Source: Bryobacterales bacterium (GTDB taxonomy: Bacteria > Acidobacteriota > Terriglobia > Bryobacterales > Bryobacteraceae). From it: a DNA stretch of 10,411 nt. A model generated the notes under the pieces. It was not told the origin of the DNA, made no database searches, and worked only from the letters and a program-made list of their open reading frames with translations. A program made the position numbers and the translations under genes. Of the stretch, positions 2,761 through 10,411 are shown one piece after another (positions within the stretch are counted from its first letter, which is position 1; each line of letters starts with the position of its first letter). The stretch spans positions 1-10,411 of the forward strand of contig JAEUQE010000274.1 in the NCBI GenBank assembly GCA_016789785.1, written 5' to 3'.

Positions 2761-5529
2761 TCAGTCGCTCCGCATCGCTGTCATCGGATCGATCCGTGAC
2801 GCTCTCCGAGCCGGGATGTAGCCGGCCAGAAGCACGGCGCCAAGCAGAATGCCCACCGACAACAGCATGGTCGACGGATCCGCCGGCTCCACTCCGTAAA
2901 GGAACGACTCCACGAGCCGCGAGGAAAGGAAGGCCACGGGTAAACCAAGCGCCAGCCCCGCCACGCCGAGCCCGACGGCGTGCCGCAAAACCAACCACAC
3001 TACGTCACCGCGCCGGGCCCCGAGCGCTACCCGGATACCGATCTCGCCGGTACGCCGCTCGACCGAGTAGGCCATCGTGCCGTAGAGACCGACGCAGGCA
3101 ATCAGCAAGGCCAGGACTGCGAACGCGGTGCAGAGCCGCGCAAAGAGGATTTCCTGGTTCATCATCTGATCGATCTGAGCGGTCTGGGTCTGGATATCGG
3201 TGACCGGCACGCGTGGATCGGCATTCCGGACGATCTCGCGCACGGTAGCGGCAAAGCGTTGCGGATCCCCGCTGGTGCGCAGCGCGTAGGTCACCTCGTC
3301 CACTGGATAGTAGGAGTCCTGGCCGATGGGAAGATACACAATGCACCGATGCTCGCCCTTCAGAGCGCCGTACCGGGCATTTCGCGCCACGCCGACAACG
3401 TCCAACTCCCGGTTCTGAAGCGGCGCCCTGCGGCGAAGCGTGATGCGCTGGCCGATCGGATTACCACCTTCCAAGTAGGTCTTCGCGTACGCCTCATTGA
3501 CCACCGCCACAGGTGTTGCCCCGGCGCGATCGCGGTCGTCGAAGACGCGGCCGGTTTGCACCGGGATCTGCTGGGCGGCGAAGAAGTCCGGCCCGACGAG
3601 TAAGATGTGTGGGTACTTGCCAGGCTTGGCCTCAACGCCGGCCGGCATGACGGGTGAACTCCAGGTGCCCTGTCCGAGCATCGGATGATGCGTAAACGTA
3701 GCCTGACTTACCCCGGGGAGCGCACGGAACCGGGCCCATAAGCCGGCATAGAAAGCGTGTATCTCCGGGTCACGATGCCCCGCTTGGCGTGCGTTCATGC
3801 GGAAGAGCAGGACGCTTTCGCGGTTGAAGCCCAACTCGATGGACTGTAGATTCGACAACGTGCCGACGAACAGGCCGGCGGCCAGCAGCAGCACCAGCGA
3901 CAGCCCGATCTGCGCTGCCACCAGGACCTGGCTCGTGCTGAACCGGCGCGAGCGGCGGCCCGCCTGGCCCGCGCAGGTCTCCTTCAACGCGCCCACCACA
4001 TTCACACGCGTCGACGCGACGGCCGGCGCCAGCCCAAAGGCAATCCCCGTGAGGACCGACAGCGCCGCGGCGGCACCGAGCACATTCCAGTTGAGGGTGG
4101 GACTCATCGTGAAGTCCTCCTGGCCATTGGCCAGCAGTGCTGTGAGAGTCCGGATTCCCGAAATCGCAAAGACGATTCCCAGCGCGCCGCCCAGCGAGGA
4201 GAGCAACACGCTTTCGGTCAGCAATTGGCGGATGACGCGGAAGCGCCCGGCGCCAATGCTCAGTCGCACCGCGATTTCGCGGCGGCGCGCCGTGGCTCTC
4301 GCCAGCAGCAGGTTGGCGATGTTGACGCAGGAGATGGTGAGGATCAGCGCCACCATTGCCAGGAGGACGTACAGGGGTTTCGAATACTGCCGCCGCAGCG
4401 TGTCCAGTCCCGTGGCGCCCTCGCGGATCCGCAGTTCCGGCAGGTGGACGCGCTCCCGCTCGTTGGCTGCCGTGGACTCCACCCAGCGGTGAAACAAGGG
4501 GCCGAGTGCGGTCTGCGCCTGCGACGGGCTCACGCCGGGCCGCAGGCGCGCCATCATTTCAAGCCAATAGTAATGCTGGTCCAGAAAAACACCGGCCTCG
4601 TTCGCGCCGAACGTCTGCCGGAGCAAGAGACCCGTGCGAAGCGGAATGTAGAAATCAGGCGCAGCCGCGGGATCCACGCCAAAGAAACCGAGCGGCGCCA
4701 CGCCGGCCACGATAAACGGCACGTTGTTGATCGAGATCGACTGGCCCGGAGCTTTCGCCGCATCGCCAAACCGCTTCTGGCTATAGGCGAAGCTGAGGAC
4801 GGCGACGGCCGGAGCACCCACCCGGTCGTCATCGGGGCCAATCAACCGTCCCGTTGCCGGCGCTACGGCCAGTCCAGAAAAGTAGTCGCCGGTGACGTAC
4901 TCACCGCTGGCGATCTCCGCGTATCCGTTCGCCAGCAGGTTGAGCTTTCCCGCGGGATAGTAAGCGAAGACGGTGGAGAAGACCCCGCGAGCGTTGGACC
5001 GGATCAGGTCGAAAGCCGGATACGGGAAGATGCCCGCCACGGTTCCAGAGTCGCCCTCCTCCCACATGCTCCCATTCATGTTCTGAACCACACTGTCGCG
5101 GCCGGAACGGTCAGCGACCCGCCAGTTGAGCACGACCAGCGATTCGGGATTCGCTACCGGCAGCGAGCGCATCAACAGCCAATCCATGAAGCTATAGATG
5201 GCCGTATTGGCACCGATGCCAAGAGCCAAGGAGAGGATCGCCAGCAAGCTGAATGTCTTGTTGGTGGCTAACGTCCGCAGACCATAGCGGCAATCCTGGA
5301 GGAGTTGTTCGAGTCCAACCCAGGTCCAAACGGCGCGCGTTTCCTCCTGCACAAGAGTGGCGTTGCCGAGATCGCGGCGCGCGGCGAGGCGGGCGTGTTC
5401 CGCGGGGAGCCCCTCGGCCTGGAGCTCCTCGGCTTCCTGGTCGAGGTGAAACTGTAGCTCCTCGCGAAGGTCGTCCTCTTTGCGACGGCGAAAGAAGAGC
5501 GCCCGCAGCTTTTGAAAGAACAGATTCAT
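2761..5529 (-). CDS. ADOP-family ABC transporter permease (acidobacterial duplicated orphan permease)
   Basis: A 922-residue permease of the MacB/FtsX superfamily with duplicated architecture. Residues 1-80 form the ADOP N-terminal prefix (MNLFFQKLRALFFRRRKEDD and LREELQFHLDQEAEEL). TM1 is about 93-113 (SLLAILSLALGIGANTAIYS). A MacB-like periplasmic domain follows to about 380. The first FtsX block (about 385-515) includes LLAMVALILTISCVNIANLL and RREIAVRLSIGAGR. The repeat starts near 535 (QVLVAAQIGLSLVLLLAAGL), with a second periplasmic domain and a second FtsX block (about 794-922) containing RTGEIGIRVALGARRGDV and ending RRASRIDPMTAMRSD. The ATG at 5529 is chosen over an upstream Met (5589) because it has an AGGAGGG three bases before it and starts at the prefix. 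It overlaps the padR stop as ATGA, so the two are co-expressed. No ATPase gene is nearby, which is usual for this family. Substrate unknown; MacB relatives move peptides, antibiotics or lipoproteins across the envelope. Confidence 0.95.
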   Translation of the reverse strand: MNLFFQKLRALFFRRRKEDDLREELQFHLDQEAEELQAEGLPAEHARLAARRDLGNATLVQEETRAVWTWVGLEQLLQDCRYGLRTLATNKTFSLLAILSLALGIGANTAIYSFMDWLLMRSLPVANPESLVVLNWRVADRSGRDSVVQNMNGSMWEEGDSGTVAGIFPYPAFDLIRSNARGVFSTVFAYYPAGKLNLLANGYAEIASGEYVTGDYFSGLAVAPATGRLIGPDDDRVGAPAVAVLSFAYSQKRFGDAAKAPGQSISINNVPFIVAGVAPLGFFGVDPAAAPDFYIPLRTGLLLRQTFGANEAGVFLDQHYYWLEMMARLRPGVSPSQAQTALGPLFHRWVESTAANERERVHLPELRIREGATGLDTLRRQYSKPLYVLLAMVALILTISCVNIANLLLARATARRREIAVRLSIGAGRFRVIRQLLTESVLLSSLGGALGIVFAISGIRTLTALLANGQEDFTMSPTLNWNVLGAAAALSVLTGIAFGLAPAVASTRVNVVGALKETCAGQAGRRSRRFSTSQVLVAAQIGLSLVLLLAAGLFVGTLSNLQSIELGFNRESVLLFRMNARQAGHRDPEIHAFYAGLWARFRALPGVSQATFTHHPMLGQGTWSSPVMPAGVEAKPGKYPHILLVGPDFFAAQQIPVQTGRVFDDRDRAGATPVAVVNEAYAKTYLEGGNPIGQRITLRRRAPLQNRELDVVGVARNARYGALKGEHRCIVYLPIGQDSYYPVDEVTYALRTSGDPQRFAATVREIVRNADPRVPVTDIQTQTAQIDQMMNQEILFARLCTAFAVLALLIACVGLYGTMAYSVERRTGEIGIRVALGARRGDVVWLVLRHAVGLGVAGLALGLPVAFLSSRLVESFLYGVEPADPSTMLLSVGILLGAVLLAGYIPARRASRIDPMTAMRSD

Positions 5530-5882
5530 TGTCCCTCCTGCCGGGCTGGATTCATCACCAGCCGCATGGCGCGGGAGAATGCCTCCCATTTCGACTGCTC
5601 GCTGACAAGTTGTTTCCGGCCGCGGGGGGTGAGGCGGTATACTCTGGCCCGCTTGCCCTTGTCAGACAACTCCCAGGAGGCAGTGACCCAGCCCTTGGCT
5701 TCGAGCCGGTGAAGGGCCGGGTAGAGCGACCCGGTTTCGACTTTCAGCAGGTCCTCGGAAGTGCGTTGGATGTGTTTGGCGATGGCATGGCCGTGGGTAG
5801 GTCCGTTGAGAAGGGTTTGGAGGATCAGAAGATCGAGCGAACCCCTCATCAATTCGATGCTGGAGATCGGCGTGGCAGGCAT
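5526..5882 (-). CDS. PadR-family transcriptional regulator
   Basis: A 118-residue winged-helix protein. The PadR signature is clear: MRGSLDLLILQTLLNGPTHG (about residues 12-31), HAIAKHIQRTSEDLLKVETG, then the recognition-helix/wing region SLYPALHRLEAKGWVTASWE and RVYRLTPRGRKQL. This short form, with a small C-terminal dimerisation helix, is the type usually paired with ADOP permeases. PadR proteins are generally autorepressors released by a ligand. The stop (5526-5528) overlaps the permease ATG as ATGA, so the regulator leads a two-gene operon. The ATG at 5882 has no Shine-Dalgarno sequence and sits only a few bases below a plausible -10 element, so the mRNA may be leaderless or have a very short leader. 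A later in-frame Met (MRGSL) also lacks a ribosome-binding site. Two copies of an inverted repeat overlap the promoter. Confidence 0.93.
   Translation of the reverse strand: MPATPISSIELMRGSLDLLILQTLLNGPTHGHAIAKHIQRTSEDLLKVETGSLYPALHRLEAKGWVTASWELSDKGKRARVYRLTPRGRKQLVSEQSKWEAFSRAMRLVMNPARQEGQ
5533..5539 (-). promoter_or_regulatory. Shine-Dalgarno of the ADOP permease
   Basis: AGGAGGG on the minus strand, followed by ACA and the ATG at 5529. It lies inside the last codons of padR and settles the permease start. Confidence 0.85.
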
Positions 5883-6120: not shown

Positions 6121-6501
6121 GTGGCGTTCAGACATTCGGCCGTGTGCATCGTTCCTCAGAACCTCTACGAGTTGTGGACAGTCGCGACCAGGCCAGCGGC
6201 CAGTAACGGACTTGCGCTCACACCCGAGCAAGCCAATCGCGTTCTCACTCGCATTGAACAGCTTCTCGTTCTGATGCGCGACACGCCAGGGATCTACGAC
6301 GAGTGGCGTCGCCTTGTTTCTGTCCACTCGATATCCGGCAAGGCTTCACACGATGCGCGACTGGCCGCCGCCATGAACGTGCACGGAATCGGCCATGTGC
6401 TCACCTTCCACACCGGAGACTTCAAACGCTTTCCGGGAATCACGGTTCCTGATCCGCGCAAGGTTTCGGCCAAGCCGGCCGAACCGCAGAGGGAGTCATA
6501 A
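6121..6501 (+). pseudogene. VapC-like PIN-domain remnant, N-terminus missing
   Basis: From about 6139 the frame matches the C-terminal two thirds of a PIN toxin: AVCIVPQNLYELWTVATRP, then LVSVHSISGKASHDARLAAA, MNVHGIGHVLTFHTGDFKRF and PGITVPDP. The second and third acidic positions (E in YELW, D in SHDARL) and the D near TGDF are present. The first 35-40 residues, which should carry the LLDTN-type first Asp, are absent. The three plus-strand frames of 5990-6140 do not supply them, and no antitoxin gene precedes it. The GTG at 6121 could open the frame but would give a protein without the first catalytic Asp, so it is called a truncated pseudogene. This PIN subgroup differs from the broken vapC at 1741-2139, so the two are not a recent duplicate. 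The 3' end at TAA 6501 appears natural. Confidence 0.75.
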
Positions 6502-6823
6502 CGGGGGCGTTGCCCCTGCGACACCCGAGAGAGGCGTTCCCCAGGCGATTCCAGGCGGCTTGCATTGCGCGAGGACGCGCACTGCGATGTTGAAGGGCAG
6601 CTAAGCTTCGCTCCGGGTTTGACGATGCGCGGCCCCAGGCGAGGCGGCGCCGCTTTCCTGCTCCCGCCGGCAGCTTGCAGGATACTCACGGCTCTGCGTC
6701 CATGCTGTTGTCCGCAGGCTCGAAGCTGCTCTCGAGCTTCCCGCGGCTGGCTGTATCGCGATCCCCAGAGCACGAAGTCTTGACCGGTTCCACACGCTCC
6801 AGGCGAAGGCGTGTTCTTTAATG
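6502..6823. other. Gene-free stretch upstream of the fusion gene
   Basis: No supported gene. Short frames on both strands here lack motifs, ribosome-binding sites and biased codon use. A small GGGGC-GTT-GCCCC hairpin sits at 6504-6516 with no T-tract. Promoter elements of the next gene begin at 6824. Confidence 0.5.
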
Positions 6824-6852
6824 TTGCAACTGATTTGCAAAACGAATATACT
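6824..6852 (+). promoter_or_regulatory. Promoter and palindromic operator of the PepSY-receptor gene
   Basis: TTGCAA (6824-6829) and TATACT (6847-6852) are separated by 17 bases, a good sigma70-type promoter, with expected initiation near 6859 and the ATG at 6873. A second TTGCAA lies at 6835-6840 inside the spacer. TTGCAA-CTGAT-TTGCAA is thus a 17-bp dyad covering the -35 and spacer, the position of a repressor site. The shape and the gene it serves suggest a Fur-family site, an inference from resemblance only. Confidence 0.55.
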
Positions 6853-6872
6853 GGATCCACGCGAGCAAGACC

Positions 6873-9800
6873 ATGTTTCCCTTTGTATCGAACCCGCGAG
6901 CCTGGAAGCCGAGGAAGTGGTTCTTCCAGGTACACCTTTACGCCGGCATCGTGGTTGGTTTTCTGGCACTCGTGATCGGGTTGTCCGGCGCCGCGCTGGT
7001 CTACTCGCCAGAGCTGGAAGTCGCGCCAAGATGGGCTTCGGCGTCCGTTTCGAAGCCCATGGCGCTCGCTGATCTGACCCGCGCCGTTGCCCGGCAGTAT
7101 CCGGGGTTTCGCGTCGAGGACATCAGGTTCAGCACGGCGGGGATCGCCACGCAGGTTCACGTCAAGAAAGCGCTCGCCAACGACGGCGGCAACGGGAAGG
7201 CGCCGGGAACCGATCTGCAACTCGTTGTCGATCCACAGACGGGTCAAGTACTCAAGGCGGTGGACCGGCACACTGGCGTCTGGAATTTCCTTCGCGACCT
7301 GCACCACGATCTGCTGGCGGGCAGGACCGGCCGTGTGGTGAACGGTCTCGGCGCCTTGGCCCTGTTCACGCTTTGTGTGACTGGAATGGTCATCTGGTGG
7401 CCAGGCACACGGCTGTGGAAGCAGAGAGTGAAAGTCCAGAGCGGGACCAGTTGGAAGCGTTTCAACTGGGACTTGCACAACGCAGGGGGATTCTGGCTTG
7501 CGGCGGGTCTTGCGTTCTTCTCGTTCACTGGTTTTCAATACGCGTTTCCGCAGGTGACAAAAGGTGCGCTGCGCTGGATGACCGGGAGTCCGGAGCGGCC
7601 CAAGAAGCCGAAGCTTGCCGTGCGAACCGGCGGGATGGCTGATCTCGATACCGTTGCCCGGCAGGCGATGGGTGCGGTTCCCGATGGACGCCTCGCGCAG
7701 ATCAAACTGCCGAAGAAGGCAGACGAGCCATTCGAAGTGCGGATGAAGACGGCCTTCGACGGACACCATGAGGGAAACAACAAGGTCTTCCTGGACGGGC
7801 CGACCGGCGATGTGCTGCTGGTGGATCGATTCGACCGGCTGCCGCTCGCGAGCCGTGCAATTGAGTTGCTAGAGCCGCTGCACAACGCGCGGTTCATGAC
7901 GCTCAATGAAGCGAGTGTGTTGGCGCGTGCGCCTTGGATCGTGATGGGACTGGCGCCCGGCTTTCTCTTCCTTACGGGCTTCCTGATGTGGTGGAACCGG
8001 GTGGTCTCGAAGAAACTGGTGGCGGTACGCTCGCAGGCGGCACGGGTTGAACTGGTCAAGCCCGCGCGGGCAGCGGGAATCGCGATCTTGCTGTTTATGG
8101 CGCAGACGCAGCTTCATGCTCAACTCACCGCGGAGCAGAACGTGCTGAGCGGTCTGGTGTTGGACCCGGCTGGCGCGGCCGTTGCCGGCGCGAAGATTAC
8201 GTTGCGGATCTCACCGGAGAGAACCGCGAGATCGCAGGCCGATGGAAGGTTTGAGTTTTTGAATGTTGCGCCGGGTGAATATCCGGCCAGTGTGGAAGCG
8301 GCGGGTTTCACTTCGTGGTTCGGGACGTTGAAGCGGGCGGCGGGGACGGAGGTACGGCTCGAGGTGGCGGCCGCGGTCGAGTCGATCACGGTCAACGCGG
8401 GTACGTTGGAGGAGCAGCGTCTTGAAGAGCCTTTGATGAGCACCAGCATTGGACGCGCCGATATCGCGAGCCGGAACAACCGGCGTTTGAGCGACGTTGT
8501 GGCGCGCATGCCTGGTGTGTTTCTGACCGGGCCTCCGGGCGGCGAGAAGGATATCCGGGTGCGAGGCCTCGACAAGGAATACGCGCGGACACAGGTCGAT
8601 GGAGTCATGATTCCAGATGGCGGCGAGAAGCGAGAGTTGCAACTCAATCGCATCCCGTCATCCGTGGTGGATTCGGTGCGGCTGATTCGGAATCCAACCG
8701 CCGAGTTCGAAAGTGACGGCCTGGCCGGCCGCGTTGACGTGCAGACCCGGCCCATTCCGGAGGGGCTTCACGTGGATGGAAGGCTAGGATACGGCGCCCG
8801 CGGCGCGAGGACCAACAGCGTGGCCCAGGGACAACTCTCGGCCGGGTGGCGTTTCAGCCGGCGCTTTGGCTTCATGGCGGGATACAACTACATCGACGAC
8901 CACCTGCCAATCGATCGCAACAGGCTACTGTCCAATCGCAACACGGAGGTTGAAACGGAGCAGCAGAACCAACGATCGGGGAACTTCTTCGGCAACTTCG
9001 GAGTGTACACAGATCGCTTGGGCACATTTCACGTGAAGCCCGTAGTGATGGACTTCTTGACCGGGATGGAGCGGCTGCGGACGAGCGAGAATTTCGCTGG
9101 CGCGCTTCTGAACCGTACCGGCGAAGCGGAAGACAAGTCGCAGAGGACGCGCGGGCTGTCGCTGACGCACCAGTACGCCCGATCAAACGGTCTCGTTTGG
9201 GATACGCAGGCGGCGTTCTTCCGGAGCACGGAAGGCAAGGACAAGCTGGCGACGGCATTCAAAGTGAGCAACCAGATCGCGACGCTCGATAAGAGAACTC
9301 CCGAATTGGAGACGAAGGCGGACCAGACCTGGAACTTTGCGAGCGCGGCCGCTGTGCCGTTCCAGTTCGGTGTATGGAATGAGTTGAAGTTTGGCGCTGC
9401 CGCTCGCATGCGGGACCGGTTTCGCGATAAGAGCAAGTATGAAATCGATCTGGCGGGCAGGCAAAAGGACGTGAGCACTCCCAAGGACCGGTACAACCTG
9501 ACCGAGGATTATCAGGCGTTCTTCGTGCAAGACCGGTTCCGGTTTACGGAGCGTTTCTCCATCATGCCCGGTTTGCGAATTGAGCGTGTCACGCTCGATG
9601 CGGGGAATCCACTGGTGCAAGCGGACCGGCGCGTGTTTGTGGATGTGAATCCTTCGACGCACCTCCTCTATCGCGTCCGCCGCAATGTGAGTCTGCACGC
9701 GGCGGTGTCACGCGGGCTGGCGCGCCCGAAGTTCGACGAGCTGTCACCGTTCGAAGTCGCCAGTGCGACGAAGATCGTGGTTGGCAATCCGGACCTGGAT

Positions 9801-10411
9801 CCGGCCCGGGCCTGGAACTATGACGCGGGAGTGGATTATGCGACGAGCCGGGTATCCTTCTCGGTCAACGCGTTCCGAAAGACGATTCGGGGCGTGATTG
9901 AAGAGGTGGACACGCTTGAGAACCGCGGTACGGTGGACATCTACCAGGTGCGGAACGCCGGCAACGGCTGGCTGCGTGGGATCGAGTTCGAGCAGCGGTT
10001 GCGGATGCCGCAGGCGGCGCCGGTCTGGATGAGGGCGTTTTCGGTGTGGTCGAACCAGACGCTGATCAGCAGCCGCCTGCTGGCGGCCAGCGGGTTGCAC
10101 CGGCCATTCAAGGAGCAACCCCGATGGATCGCCAACGTGGGCCTGGACTTCAACAACGACGAGCGCAGTGGCACTTCGATGTCGGTGATCTCGAATTTCA
10201 CCGCGCGCCGTTTTGACTATAAGACCTCCGGCGATGTGACGGGGAAGGGCGGGTCGTCCAACTTCGACATGGCAGTGTACCAGAGGGTGCGTGGCAACTG
10301 GCGCCTCTTCGCGGAGATGAATAACCTGATGAATCGCGACCGCAGTGAGGACGAGATGTTCGTGAACGGCACGGTGAACCGGAGAGTGGAGCGCTACGGC
10401 CGGACGGCGCT
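6873..10411 (+). CDS. PepSY-TM / TonB-dependent receptor fusion, 3' end outside window
   Basis: One reading frame without a stop runs from ATG 6873 to the window end (at least 1179 residues). Residues 1-381 are a four-helix PepSY-TM protein: TM1 about 24-46 (VHLYAG entry), TM2 156-176, TM3 206-222, TM4 355-374, with periplasmic domains between TM1/2 and TM3/4. Conserved His stand at H21, H144/H145 (DLHHDLL), H202 (WDLHNAGG) and H337 (PLHNARF). In relatives such as FoxB/PiuB such His bind heme for ferric-siderophore reduction. Residues 396-416 look like a signal peptide ending LHA/Q. Then come CarboxypepD_reg (about 424-495), TonB plug (about 517-627; LSDVVARMPGVFL, IRVRGLDKEYARTQVDGVMI, GLAGRVDVQTR) and a 22-strand-type barrel from about 630, ending in FAEMNNLMNRD and YGRTA, about a dozen residues short of a normal receptor C-terminus. 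The ATG is the first Met after an in-frame stop at 6831; its ribosome-binding site is weak. An internal GTG start (8019) for a separate receptor is possible but unsupported. Confidence 0.9.
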   Translation, partial: MFPFVSNPRAWKPRKWFFQVHLYAGIVVGFLALVIGLSGAALVYSPELEVAPRWASASVSKPMALADLTRAVARQYPGFRVEDIRFSTAGIATQVHVKKALANDGGNGKAPGTDLQLVVDPQTGQVLKAVDRHTGVWNFLRDLHHDLLAGRTGRVVNGLGALALFTLCVTGMVIWWPGTRLWKQRVKVQSGTSWKRFNWDLHNAGGFWLAAGLAFFSFTGFQYAFPQVTKGALRWMTGSPERPKKPKLAVRTGGMADLDTVARQAMGAVPDGRLAQIKLPKKADEPFEVRMKTAFDGHHEGNNKVFLDGPTGDVLLVDRFDRLPLASRAIELLEPLHNARFMTLNEASVLARAPWIVMGLAPGFLFLTGFLMWWNRVVSKKLVAVRSQAARVELVKPARAAGIAILLFMAQTQLHAQLTAEQNVLSGLVLDPAGAAVAGAKITLRISPERTARSQADGRFEFLNVAPGEYPASVEAAGFTSWFGTLKRAAGTEVRLEVAAAVESITVNAGTLEEQRLEEPLMSTSIGRADIASRNNRRLSDVVARMPGVFLTGPPGGEKDIRVRGLDKEYARTQVDGVMIPDGGEKRELQLNRIPSSVVDSVRLIRNPTAEFESDGLAGRVDVQTRPIPEGLHVDGRLGYGARGARTNSVAQGQLSAGWRFSRRFGFMAGYNYIDDHLPIDRNRLLSNRNTEVETEQQNQRSGNFFGNFGVYTDRLGTFHVKPVVMDFLTGMERLRTSENFAGALLNRTGEAEDKSQRTRGLSLTHQYARSNGLVWDTQAAFFRSTEGKDKLATAFKVSNQIATLDKRTPELETKADQTWNFASAAAVPFQFGVWNELKFGAAARMRDRFRDKSKYEIDLAGRQKDVSTPKDRYNLTEDYQAFFVQDRFRFTERFSIMPGLRIERVTLDAGNPLVQADRRVFVDVNPSTHLLYRVRRNVSLHAAVSRGLARPKFDELSPFEVASATKIVVGNPDLDPARAWNYDAGVDYATSRVSFSVNAFRKTIRGVIEEVDTLENRGTVDIYQVRNAGNGWLRGIEFEQRLRMPQAAPVWMRAFSVWSNQTLISSRLLAASGLHRPFKEQPRWIANVGLDFNNDERSGTSMSVISNFTARRFDYKTSGDVTGKGGSSNFDMAVYQRVRGNWRLFAEMNNLMNRDRSEDEMFVNGTVNRRVERYGRTA
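8058..8123 (+). other. Internal signal-peptide-like segment joining the PepSY and receptor parts
   Basis: Codons for residues 396-417 read KPARAAGIAILLFMAQTQLH then AQ: two basic residues, a short hydrophobic core (GIAILLFM) and small residues at -3/-1 in a type-I-like site (L-H-A before Q). It follows a basic stretch after TM4 that should be cytoplasmic, so the segment would cross the membrane inward-to-outward and place the cleavage site in the periplasm. Confidence 0.7.

Follow-up and report, generated by a model that had tools for sequence, protein, structure and literature searches.

We analysed a 10,411-nucleotide stretch from a Bryobacterales bacterium (contig JAEUQE010000274.1; hereafter the window), which ends in a gene that fuses a PepSY_TM reductase-like protein to a TonB-dependent receptor (6873..10411, + strand; 1179 codons, the 3′ end missing at the contig end). 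On the basis of sequence features and structural models, the product is probably a polyprotein; cleavage by signal peptidase I behind residue 416 would give a predicted inner-membrane reductase and a predicted outer-membrane receptor. The single frame described in a first-pass annotation of the window stands, and the fusion is conserved in relatives; the predicted internal signal peptide at the join had been missed. A precursor cut into two proteins is the most likely product, rather than a lasting chain tied to both membranes.

Two proteins in a single frame

Frame reading found zero stops between the ATG at 6873 and the window end, bearing out the uninterrupted frame (6873-10409) and its 1179 codons. 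Within it, Pfam placed PepSY_TM, CarboxypepD_reg, Plug and TonB barrel in that order, which agrees with the full PepSY-TM protein, CarboxypepD_reg domain, plug and barrel originally described, the receptor being nearly complete.

The PepSY_TM reductase-like half (6924..8000, + strand; residues 18-376) has four predicted transmembrane helices and two PepSY domains, and matches PF03929 at residues 18-376 over the entire profile (E 2.9e-52; positions 1-295 of 295). As the receptor part fills the match list when the full chain is searched by fold, the PepSY half was modelled and searched separately; FoxB was then the only strong structural match. Four histidines lie opposite FoxB histidines and are invariant in 36 rows, and all are predicted heme ligands: His21 (codon 6933..6935), His144 (7302..7304), His202 (7476..7478) and His337 (7881..7883), each on the + strand. 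That conserved histidines of such proteins ligate two hemes is stated in a paper on a system other than FoxB. PepSY_TM proteins of the FoxB type have four helices with both PepSY domains periplasmic, according to PMC10866019, and for this reason we place the C-terminus of the PepSY half inside. Taken with the model, these features point to a FoxB-like, predicted inner-membrane iron-siderophore reductase.

The second half is a predicted outer-membrane TonB-dependent receptor in which plug and β-barrel are both present. On the + strand, a CarboxypepD_reg domain (8145..8366, residues 425-498; PF13620, E 4.6e-12) is followed by the heptapeptide VESITVN (8376..8396, residues 502-508), a candidate TonB box by its resemblance to such motifs; V507, N508 and G510 are invariant in 27 rows, and the predicted local distance difference test score (pLDDT) of the AlphaFold model is <50 around it, at residues 499-523. 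The Plug domain (8430..8729, residues 520-619; PF07715, E 9.4e-15) and the barrel follow, with the Pfam match to the latter at 9096..10328 (residues 742-1152; E 3.7e-42) and barrel strands continuing past it to the window end. In the alignment, P0003 and other relatives extend 8 residues beyond the point at which the contig end truncates the frame; the receptor C-terminus thus lies beyond the window. At this end, where the BAM machinery calls for an aromatic residue, the last letter is F in many relatives, and some finish with L or NR.

A fold likeness does not fix a ligand, which limits the assignment, although a ferric siderophore is most likely from the models. The five top-ranked fold matches of the receptor are all siderophore receptors (Fiu, FptA, Cir, PirA and FecA, ranks 1-5), its best sequence match in the PDB is Cir, and FeoB_C was found in 3 of the 4 genomes examined. 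It is possible, though rather unlikely, that the polyprotein is as proposed and carries copper, heme or another chelate instead. OprC, ChuA and BtuB are also present among the fold matches, and CrpH, a PepSY_TM protein, is paired with the copper receptor CrtA. Of the 12 NCBIfam families returned for the window protein, none passing its cut-off, hemin and hemoglobin receptor profiles outscore CirA, a ranking that speaks against a siderophore ligand.

The join as a predicted internal signal peptide

The segment linking the halves has the anatomy of a signal peptide, as judged from its charge, its hydrophobicity and the -3/-1 rule. Helix 4 ends at residue 376 with the motif FLMWWNR. The next 23 residues form a basic n-region, predicted to be cytoplasmic (8001..8069, + strand; residues 377-399; 6 K/R, 1 D/E), and lead into the hydrophobic core AAGIAILLFMA (8070..8102, + strand; residues 400-410; Kyte-Doolittle mean 2.55 over 11 residues). 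The core is followed by QTQLHA/Q (the slash marks the cut), which contains the predicted signal peptidase I site LHA/Q (8112..8123, + strand; residues 414-417; cut 416/417, between 8120 and 8121), and the CarboxypepD_reg domain begins shortly after. The signal peptide usual at the N-terminus of a TonB-dependent receptor is not found there in this protein; the signal-like stretch is internal, at residues 377-416, and only its place differs.

These features recur throughout a set of 37 fused members (P0002, which is the window's own protein, P0003-P0028, P0046, P0048-P0052, P0054, L001, L051 and L052; P0099, P0057 and P0060 were left out, and P0051 and L052 share one join, so that not all members are independent). 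An n-region net charge of at least +3, a core of 11 residues averaging at least 1.92 on the Kyte-Doolittle scale and, under a lenient -3/-1 rule, a candidate cut site were found in 37 of 37. AQ stands at the join in 20 of the 37. Join length takes 12 distinct values, from 31 to 53 residues, and the letters diverge, while the frame is kept in every member.

Unfused relatives of either half offer a comparison. Among 27 rows of PepSY proteins outside the 37-member set, 24 carry the end motif MWW[NT] and 3 do not; a signal-like core accompanies the motif only in L006/P0130, in P0133 (a decayed fusion) and in P0029 (a fusion of another kind). In this tail comparison L006 and P0130 have identical tails, as do L020 and P0135. 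On the receptor side (frames of at least 400 residues, with repeats and matches starting after profile position 25 not displayed), 15 rows comprised 3 fused proteins and 12 unfused ones. In each of these 12 a hydrophobic stretch can be made out by eye at the N-terminus, ahead of the same domain; about 25 residues separate the two in L029. P0044, P0055 and P0058, receptors without PepSY, likewise have an N-terminal hydrophobic stretch that we read by eye as a signal peptide. The predicted cut in the fused chain falls, again by eye, at the position where the N-terminal signal-like stretch of unfused receptors ends.

One relative may preserve half of the outcome. L006 (Bryobacterales SHUD01000009.1, 6001-7272) is a PepSY gene standing alone that keeps the signal core; the protein ends in WIWAE, by eye one residue beyond where P0007 reads LSA/E, and no receptor remnant lies within the 13.3 kb examined. 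It looks like a natural version of the cleaved PepSY product.

From the single frame, the folds of both halves, the four histidines and the conserved anatomy of the join, all of them direct readings of sequence or model, we infer the following course of membrane insertion, cleavage, heme binding, substrate handling and reduction. The four PepSY helices would insert with both ends of this part cytoplasmic. The basic stretch (377-399) would stay inside and the core (400-410) would enter the Sec translocon as a signal sequence, a role for which the segment is suitably placed because a basic stretch and short core follow a cytoplasmic C-terminus. The receptor would be exported, cut by signal peptidase I at LHA/Q and passed on to the outer membrane. 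The PepSY part, now ending in the signal peptide as a tail, would not leave the inner membrane. The receptor would then import a metal chelate, for which a ferric siderophore is the most likely candidate, and in the periplasm electrons passed through the two hemes of the PepSY part would free the iron for a ferrous importer such as FeoB.

The main rival to this polyprotein is internal initiation: the receptor would be started at the Met of LMWWNR or at a GTG in the join, with its own signal peptide, while some ribosomes read through. This would likewise yield two proteins. The ATG of LMWWNR (7986) precedes a usable signal peptide, and in-frame GTG codons lie at 8001 and 8019. AGGAGG matches before ATG or GTG codons of the join reach 2-4 of 6, with 5 of 6 before one CTG; the true start, however, has just 3 of 6 Shine-Dalgarno matches and the join sites are no weaker, which counts against our reading and makes weak ribosome sites in the join a poor argument against initiation there. 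Against internal initiation, 35 of the 37 members lack any Met in the stretch from WWNR to the core. Since MWW[NT] is common in PepSY proteins that are mostly unfused (24 of 27 rows), the LMWWNR Met is explained by helix 4. A scan of 6600-8300 on both strands found no promoter-like site in the join, the only one being just 5′ of the ATG (6824-6852; 1 found versus 0.2 expected). The frame is also kept across all 12 join lengths, with the caveat that any listing of long proteins is biased towards frames that have been kept. We consider internal initiation improbable.

Still less probable is an uncut chain, in which residues 398-416 form a fifth transmembrane helix and the whole protein either bridges both membranes or inserts only one half. 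AlphaFold does draw the stretch as a helix at 398-412, or as part of one long helix. However, a membrane helix would be expected to be longer than this core (uncharged runs measure about 11-25 residues across the 37 members and 11 in the window), which is followed in every member by the candidate cut site noted above. Core and plug are separated by only about 110 residues, of which one domain takes up about 75; by our estimate this would be too short to span the periplasm comfortably. The end of L006, one residue beyond the predicted cut, also argues against an uncut chain.

That a stop was lost between two adjacent genes through a sequencing or assembly artefact, as a single 10.4-kb contig ending inside the gene might suggest, has next to no likelihood given the same kind of join in 37 sequences of differing length, one of them on a 4.86-Mb contig, and a second fused pair (P0057/P0060) elsewhere in the receptor tree; it was rejected for the family, as was a one-off chance fusion, the 37 members forming one clade.

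Distribution and origin of the fusion

Our protein searches, made with the whole protein and with each half, scored only the candidates sharing the most words with the query. The whole-protein search returned 42 matches. In 25 of them (including the window's own) PepSY_TM, plug and barrel sit on a single chain that aligns with 87-100% of the query and is 49-100% identical to it; two further matches, P0027 and P0028, are cut within the barrel. The fusion was thus found in relatives, which do not always encode two genes, though L006, P0134 and P0044 each have one half alone. With the receptor half, 113 matches were obtained at E <= 1e-50, including 37 (the window's own among them) with PepSY_TM in the same chain. 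Standalone PepSY proteins are too short for the whole-protein search to return, so the PepSY half was searched separately, giving 17 matches at E <= 1e-40, all of them shorter proteins by the length rule of the search.

A scan of named public genomes listed 30 loci, including a full fusion (L001) and the lone PepSY gene L006. At E <= 1e-70, a threshold at which weaker standalone relatives would not be listed, 257 genomes of the order of L006 gave three loci, the full fusions L051 and L052 and L006 itself; only L006 passed among 396 sampled genomes of its phylum, and only L001 among 149 genomes of its class. The fusion is therefore spread over divergent members yet rare. Named fused relatives come from Bryobacteraceae (P0022, P0024), a Verrucomicrobia bin (P0012) and a Gemmatimonadetes bin (L001), and the fused gene of L051 (L051/L073) is the one on the 4.86-Mb contig. 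Among plasmids, 685 records had a tblastn match, with 0 covering 80% of the query. Automatic annotations of relatives already name both halves on one protein.

Some copies appear broken or decayed, with a changed frame at the join or an internal deletion (P0131, P0053, P0132 and P0133; the longest contig of the first two is 38376 bases). Directly preceding the fused gene of L052 are two minus-strand open reading frames of 260 and 513 amino acids (L074, 1496-3816) that resemble IS21-type IstB/IstA by eye, and mobility of this region is possible.

Phylogenetic trees, all midpoint-rooted, were built in three sets. The first left out P0021. The PepSY tree omitted P0014, P0021, P0027, P0028, P0052, P0099 and L052 and took 10 of the 17 PepSY-half matches. 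The receptor tree omitted P0012, P0027, P0028, P0099 and L052, took 14 of 76 unfused matches and kept P0015 and P0058 uncut. In the receptor tree, 33 fused rows of the window's kind fall inside a clade of 36 (99/95), within which P0044, P0045 and P0047, unfused or cut short, are nested; P0058 and P0055, the outgroups closest to this clade, are both unfused, and their N-termini are signal-like. L006 is nested in the fused clade of the first tree (100/97) and, as P0130, within the fused group of the PepSY tree (100/95), a group that is itself supported at 100/99 and also contains P0134. Because P0130 (L006) and P0134 nest among fused PepSY sequences, two receptor losses are likely.

A second fused pair, P0057 and P0060 (100/100; P0060 named Methylomirabilota), lies apart in the receptor tree beside the unfused P0059 (100/99). 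Both resemble the window protein in their layout: a membrane part whose helices are of the PepSY type, then a basic tail, a core (here with ALAQ/P at its end) and a receptor belonging to the same subfamily (46% identity). They differ in their separate origin by the receptor tree and in having no CarboxypepD_reg domain. The join of P0060 reads ARRRRLRLQRGNGGRG-CAAIALFLAVL-HGGPALAQ/P, with no Met. Pfam matches PepSY_TM only at residues 9-45 of this protein, with PepSY_TM_like_2 below the cut-off, and repeats that look propeller-like by eye lie between its helices. We consider it likely that a two-membrane metal receptor/reductase polyprotein, made 1:1 from one start codon and matured by ordinary signal peptidase, has evolved at least twice.

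The simplest account of the origin is that a PepSY gene ran into a downstream receptor gene, whose signal peptide became internal. How such a fusion could look at its start is illustrated by L020: a PepSY gene ends at its stop and, about 200 nt downstream, a receptor gene follows in the same reading frame and in the order seen in the fusion; L024 has the same gene order. The receptors of L020 and L024 are not close to that of the window (28% identity along part of the sequence).

Known pairs, regulation and neighbouring genes

A PepSY gene next to a receptor gene is a familiar arrangement, and the comparison with foxB/foxA-type pairs already drawn for the window was apt. FoxB adjoins FoxA (PMC10866019), and PepSY_TM siderophore reductases stand beside TonB-dependent receptors in the HiuA/HiuB (PMC13001220) and XusA/XusC (PMC13142918) pairs. 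These systems unite the same two kinds of partner, and the PepSY half of the window protein shares the FoxB fold and four histidines; they are separate genes, whereas the window has one frame with the receptor signal peptide internal. CrpH and CrtA of Bordetella, encoded in one operon and with histidines needed for CrpH function (PMC13038864, PMC12914433), show the same pairing of PepSY_TM protein and TonB-dependent receptor; they differ in that each has a gene of its own and in their link to copper and respiratory oxidases.

No single-chain form with an internal signal peptide appeared among the matches listed in the open-licence literature, in keeping with the earlier remark that no described example was known. 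FbcH of Bradyrhizobium japonicum is a cytochrome b/c1 precursor cut by signal peptidase. In FbcH, as predicted for the window protein, one frame encodes a polytopic inner-membrane protein whose C-terminus is cytoplasmic, an internal signal peptide and an exported protein, and by analogy it may serve as precedent for the principle of cleavage. Both FbcH products stay in one inner-membrane complex, whereas the second product of the window gene is a predicted outer-membrane barrel.

If our reading is correct, one precursor feeds two membranes, first with an inner-membrane protein and, after a single cut, with an outer-membrane barrel. Receptor and reductase synthesis would be coupled; the 1:1 synthesis proposed at the outset follows whether the chain is cut or stays whole. 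The link between PepSY protein and receptor, usually drawn from gene neighbourhood, here lies in the reading frame, so the partners would be unambiguously paired and a receptor of unknown ligand would point to its own reductase. The gene would also be a natural test of the Sec, signal peptidase and barrel-assembly route faced with a signal after four membrane helices, for which L006, P0134 and P0044 could act as natural controls.

Three other loci were observed alongside. P0029 (768 aa) has a full PepSY_TM match (E 3.3e-61), a basic stretch, the core FLALVIAGGTV and VAQ/D, followed by about 370 residues that have no Pfam match and look by eye like a secreted β-propeller; the internal-signal arrangement may, on this sequence, serve other exported partners too. 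In L009 (Verrucomicrobia JACQWL010000496.1, 5679-7976), a single frame joins PepSY_TM to the plug of a different receptor before the contig ends inside it; its signal-peptide-like stretch has its own ATG, and an unfused receptor related to that of the window (37%) lies upstream. Of 188 genomes of its class, 30 gave matches, with only that of L009 itself extending over both halves (this leaves aside one frame of 1006 residues in G956). The unfused locus L004 (1331-6649, on a Methylomirabilis contig) contains, in this order, genes resembling exbB, exbD and tonB by eye, a receptor gene and one for a 240-aa protein of PepSY_TM-like appearance, with a ferritin-like gene nearby.

Upstream of the fused gene, the predicted promoter TTGCAA-17-TATACT (6824..6852, + strand) begins with the 17-base palindrome TTGCAACTGATTTGCAA, a candidate Fur-family-like operator that overlaps the predicted -35 box. 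The pattern TTGCAAN5TTGCAA, which resembles a Fur-family site in its shape, occurs with 0-1 mismatch upstream of the start in 4 of the 5 members whose DNA was examined: the window, L051, L052 and L006. Its distance from the start is 19-32 nt overall and 19-30 nt in the last three; L001 has TGAGACTGAGTCTCA instead. Genome-wide, sites with at most 1 mismatch were hardly commoner than in a reversed control (3 vs 2, 12 vs 10 and 3 vs 2). Control of the fused gene by iron or Fur is only a lead.

The rest of the window holds genes of other kinds. At 2-1421 on the + strand lies the C-terminal piece of what we take, from a motif, to be an Rhs-like protein, followed by a 151-aa frame, perhaps its immunity partner; no Pfam family was matched at E <= 0.001 by 2-994, 966-1418 or 6121-6498. 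On the - strand, 2761-5882 holds an ordinary pair, a PadR regulator followed by a 942-aa permease of the MacB/FtsX type.

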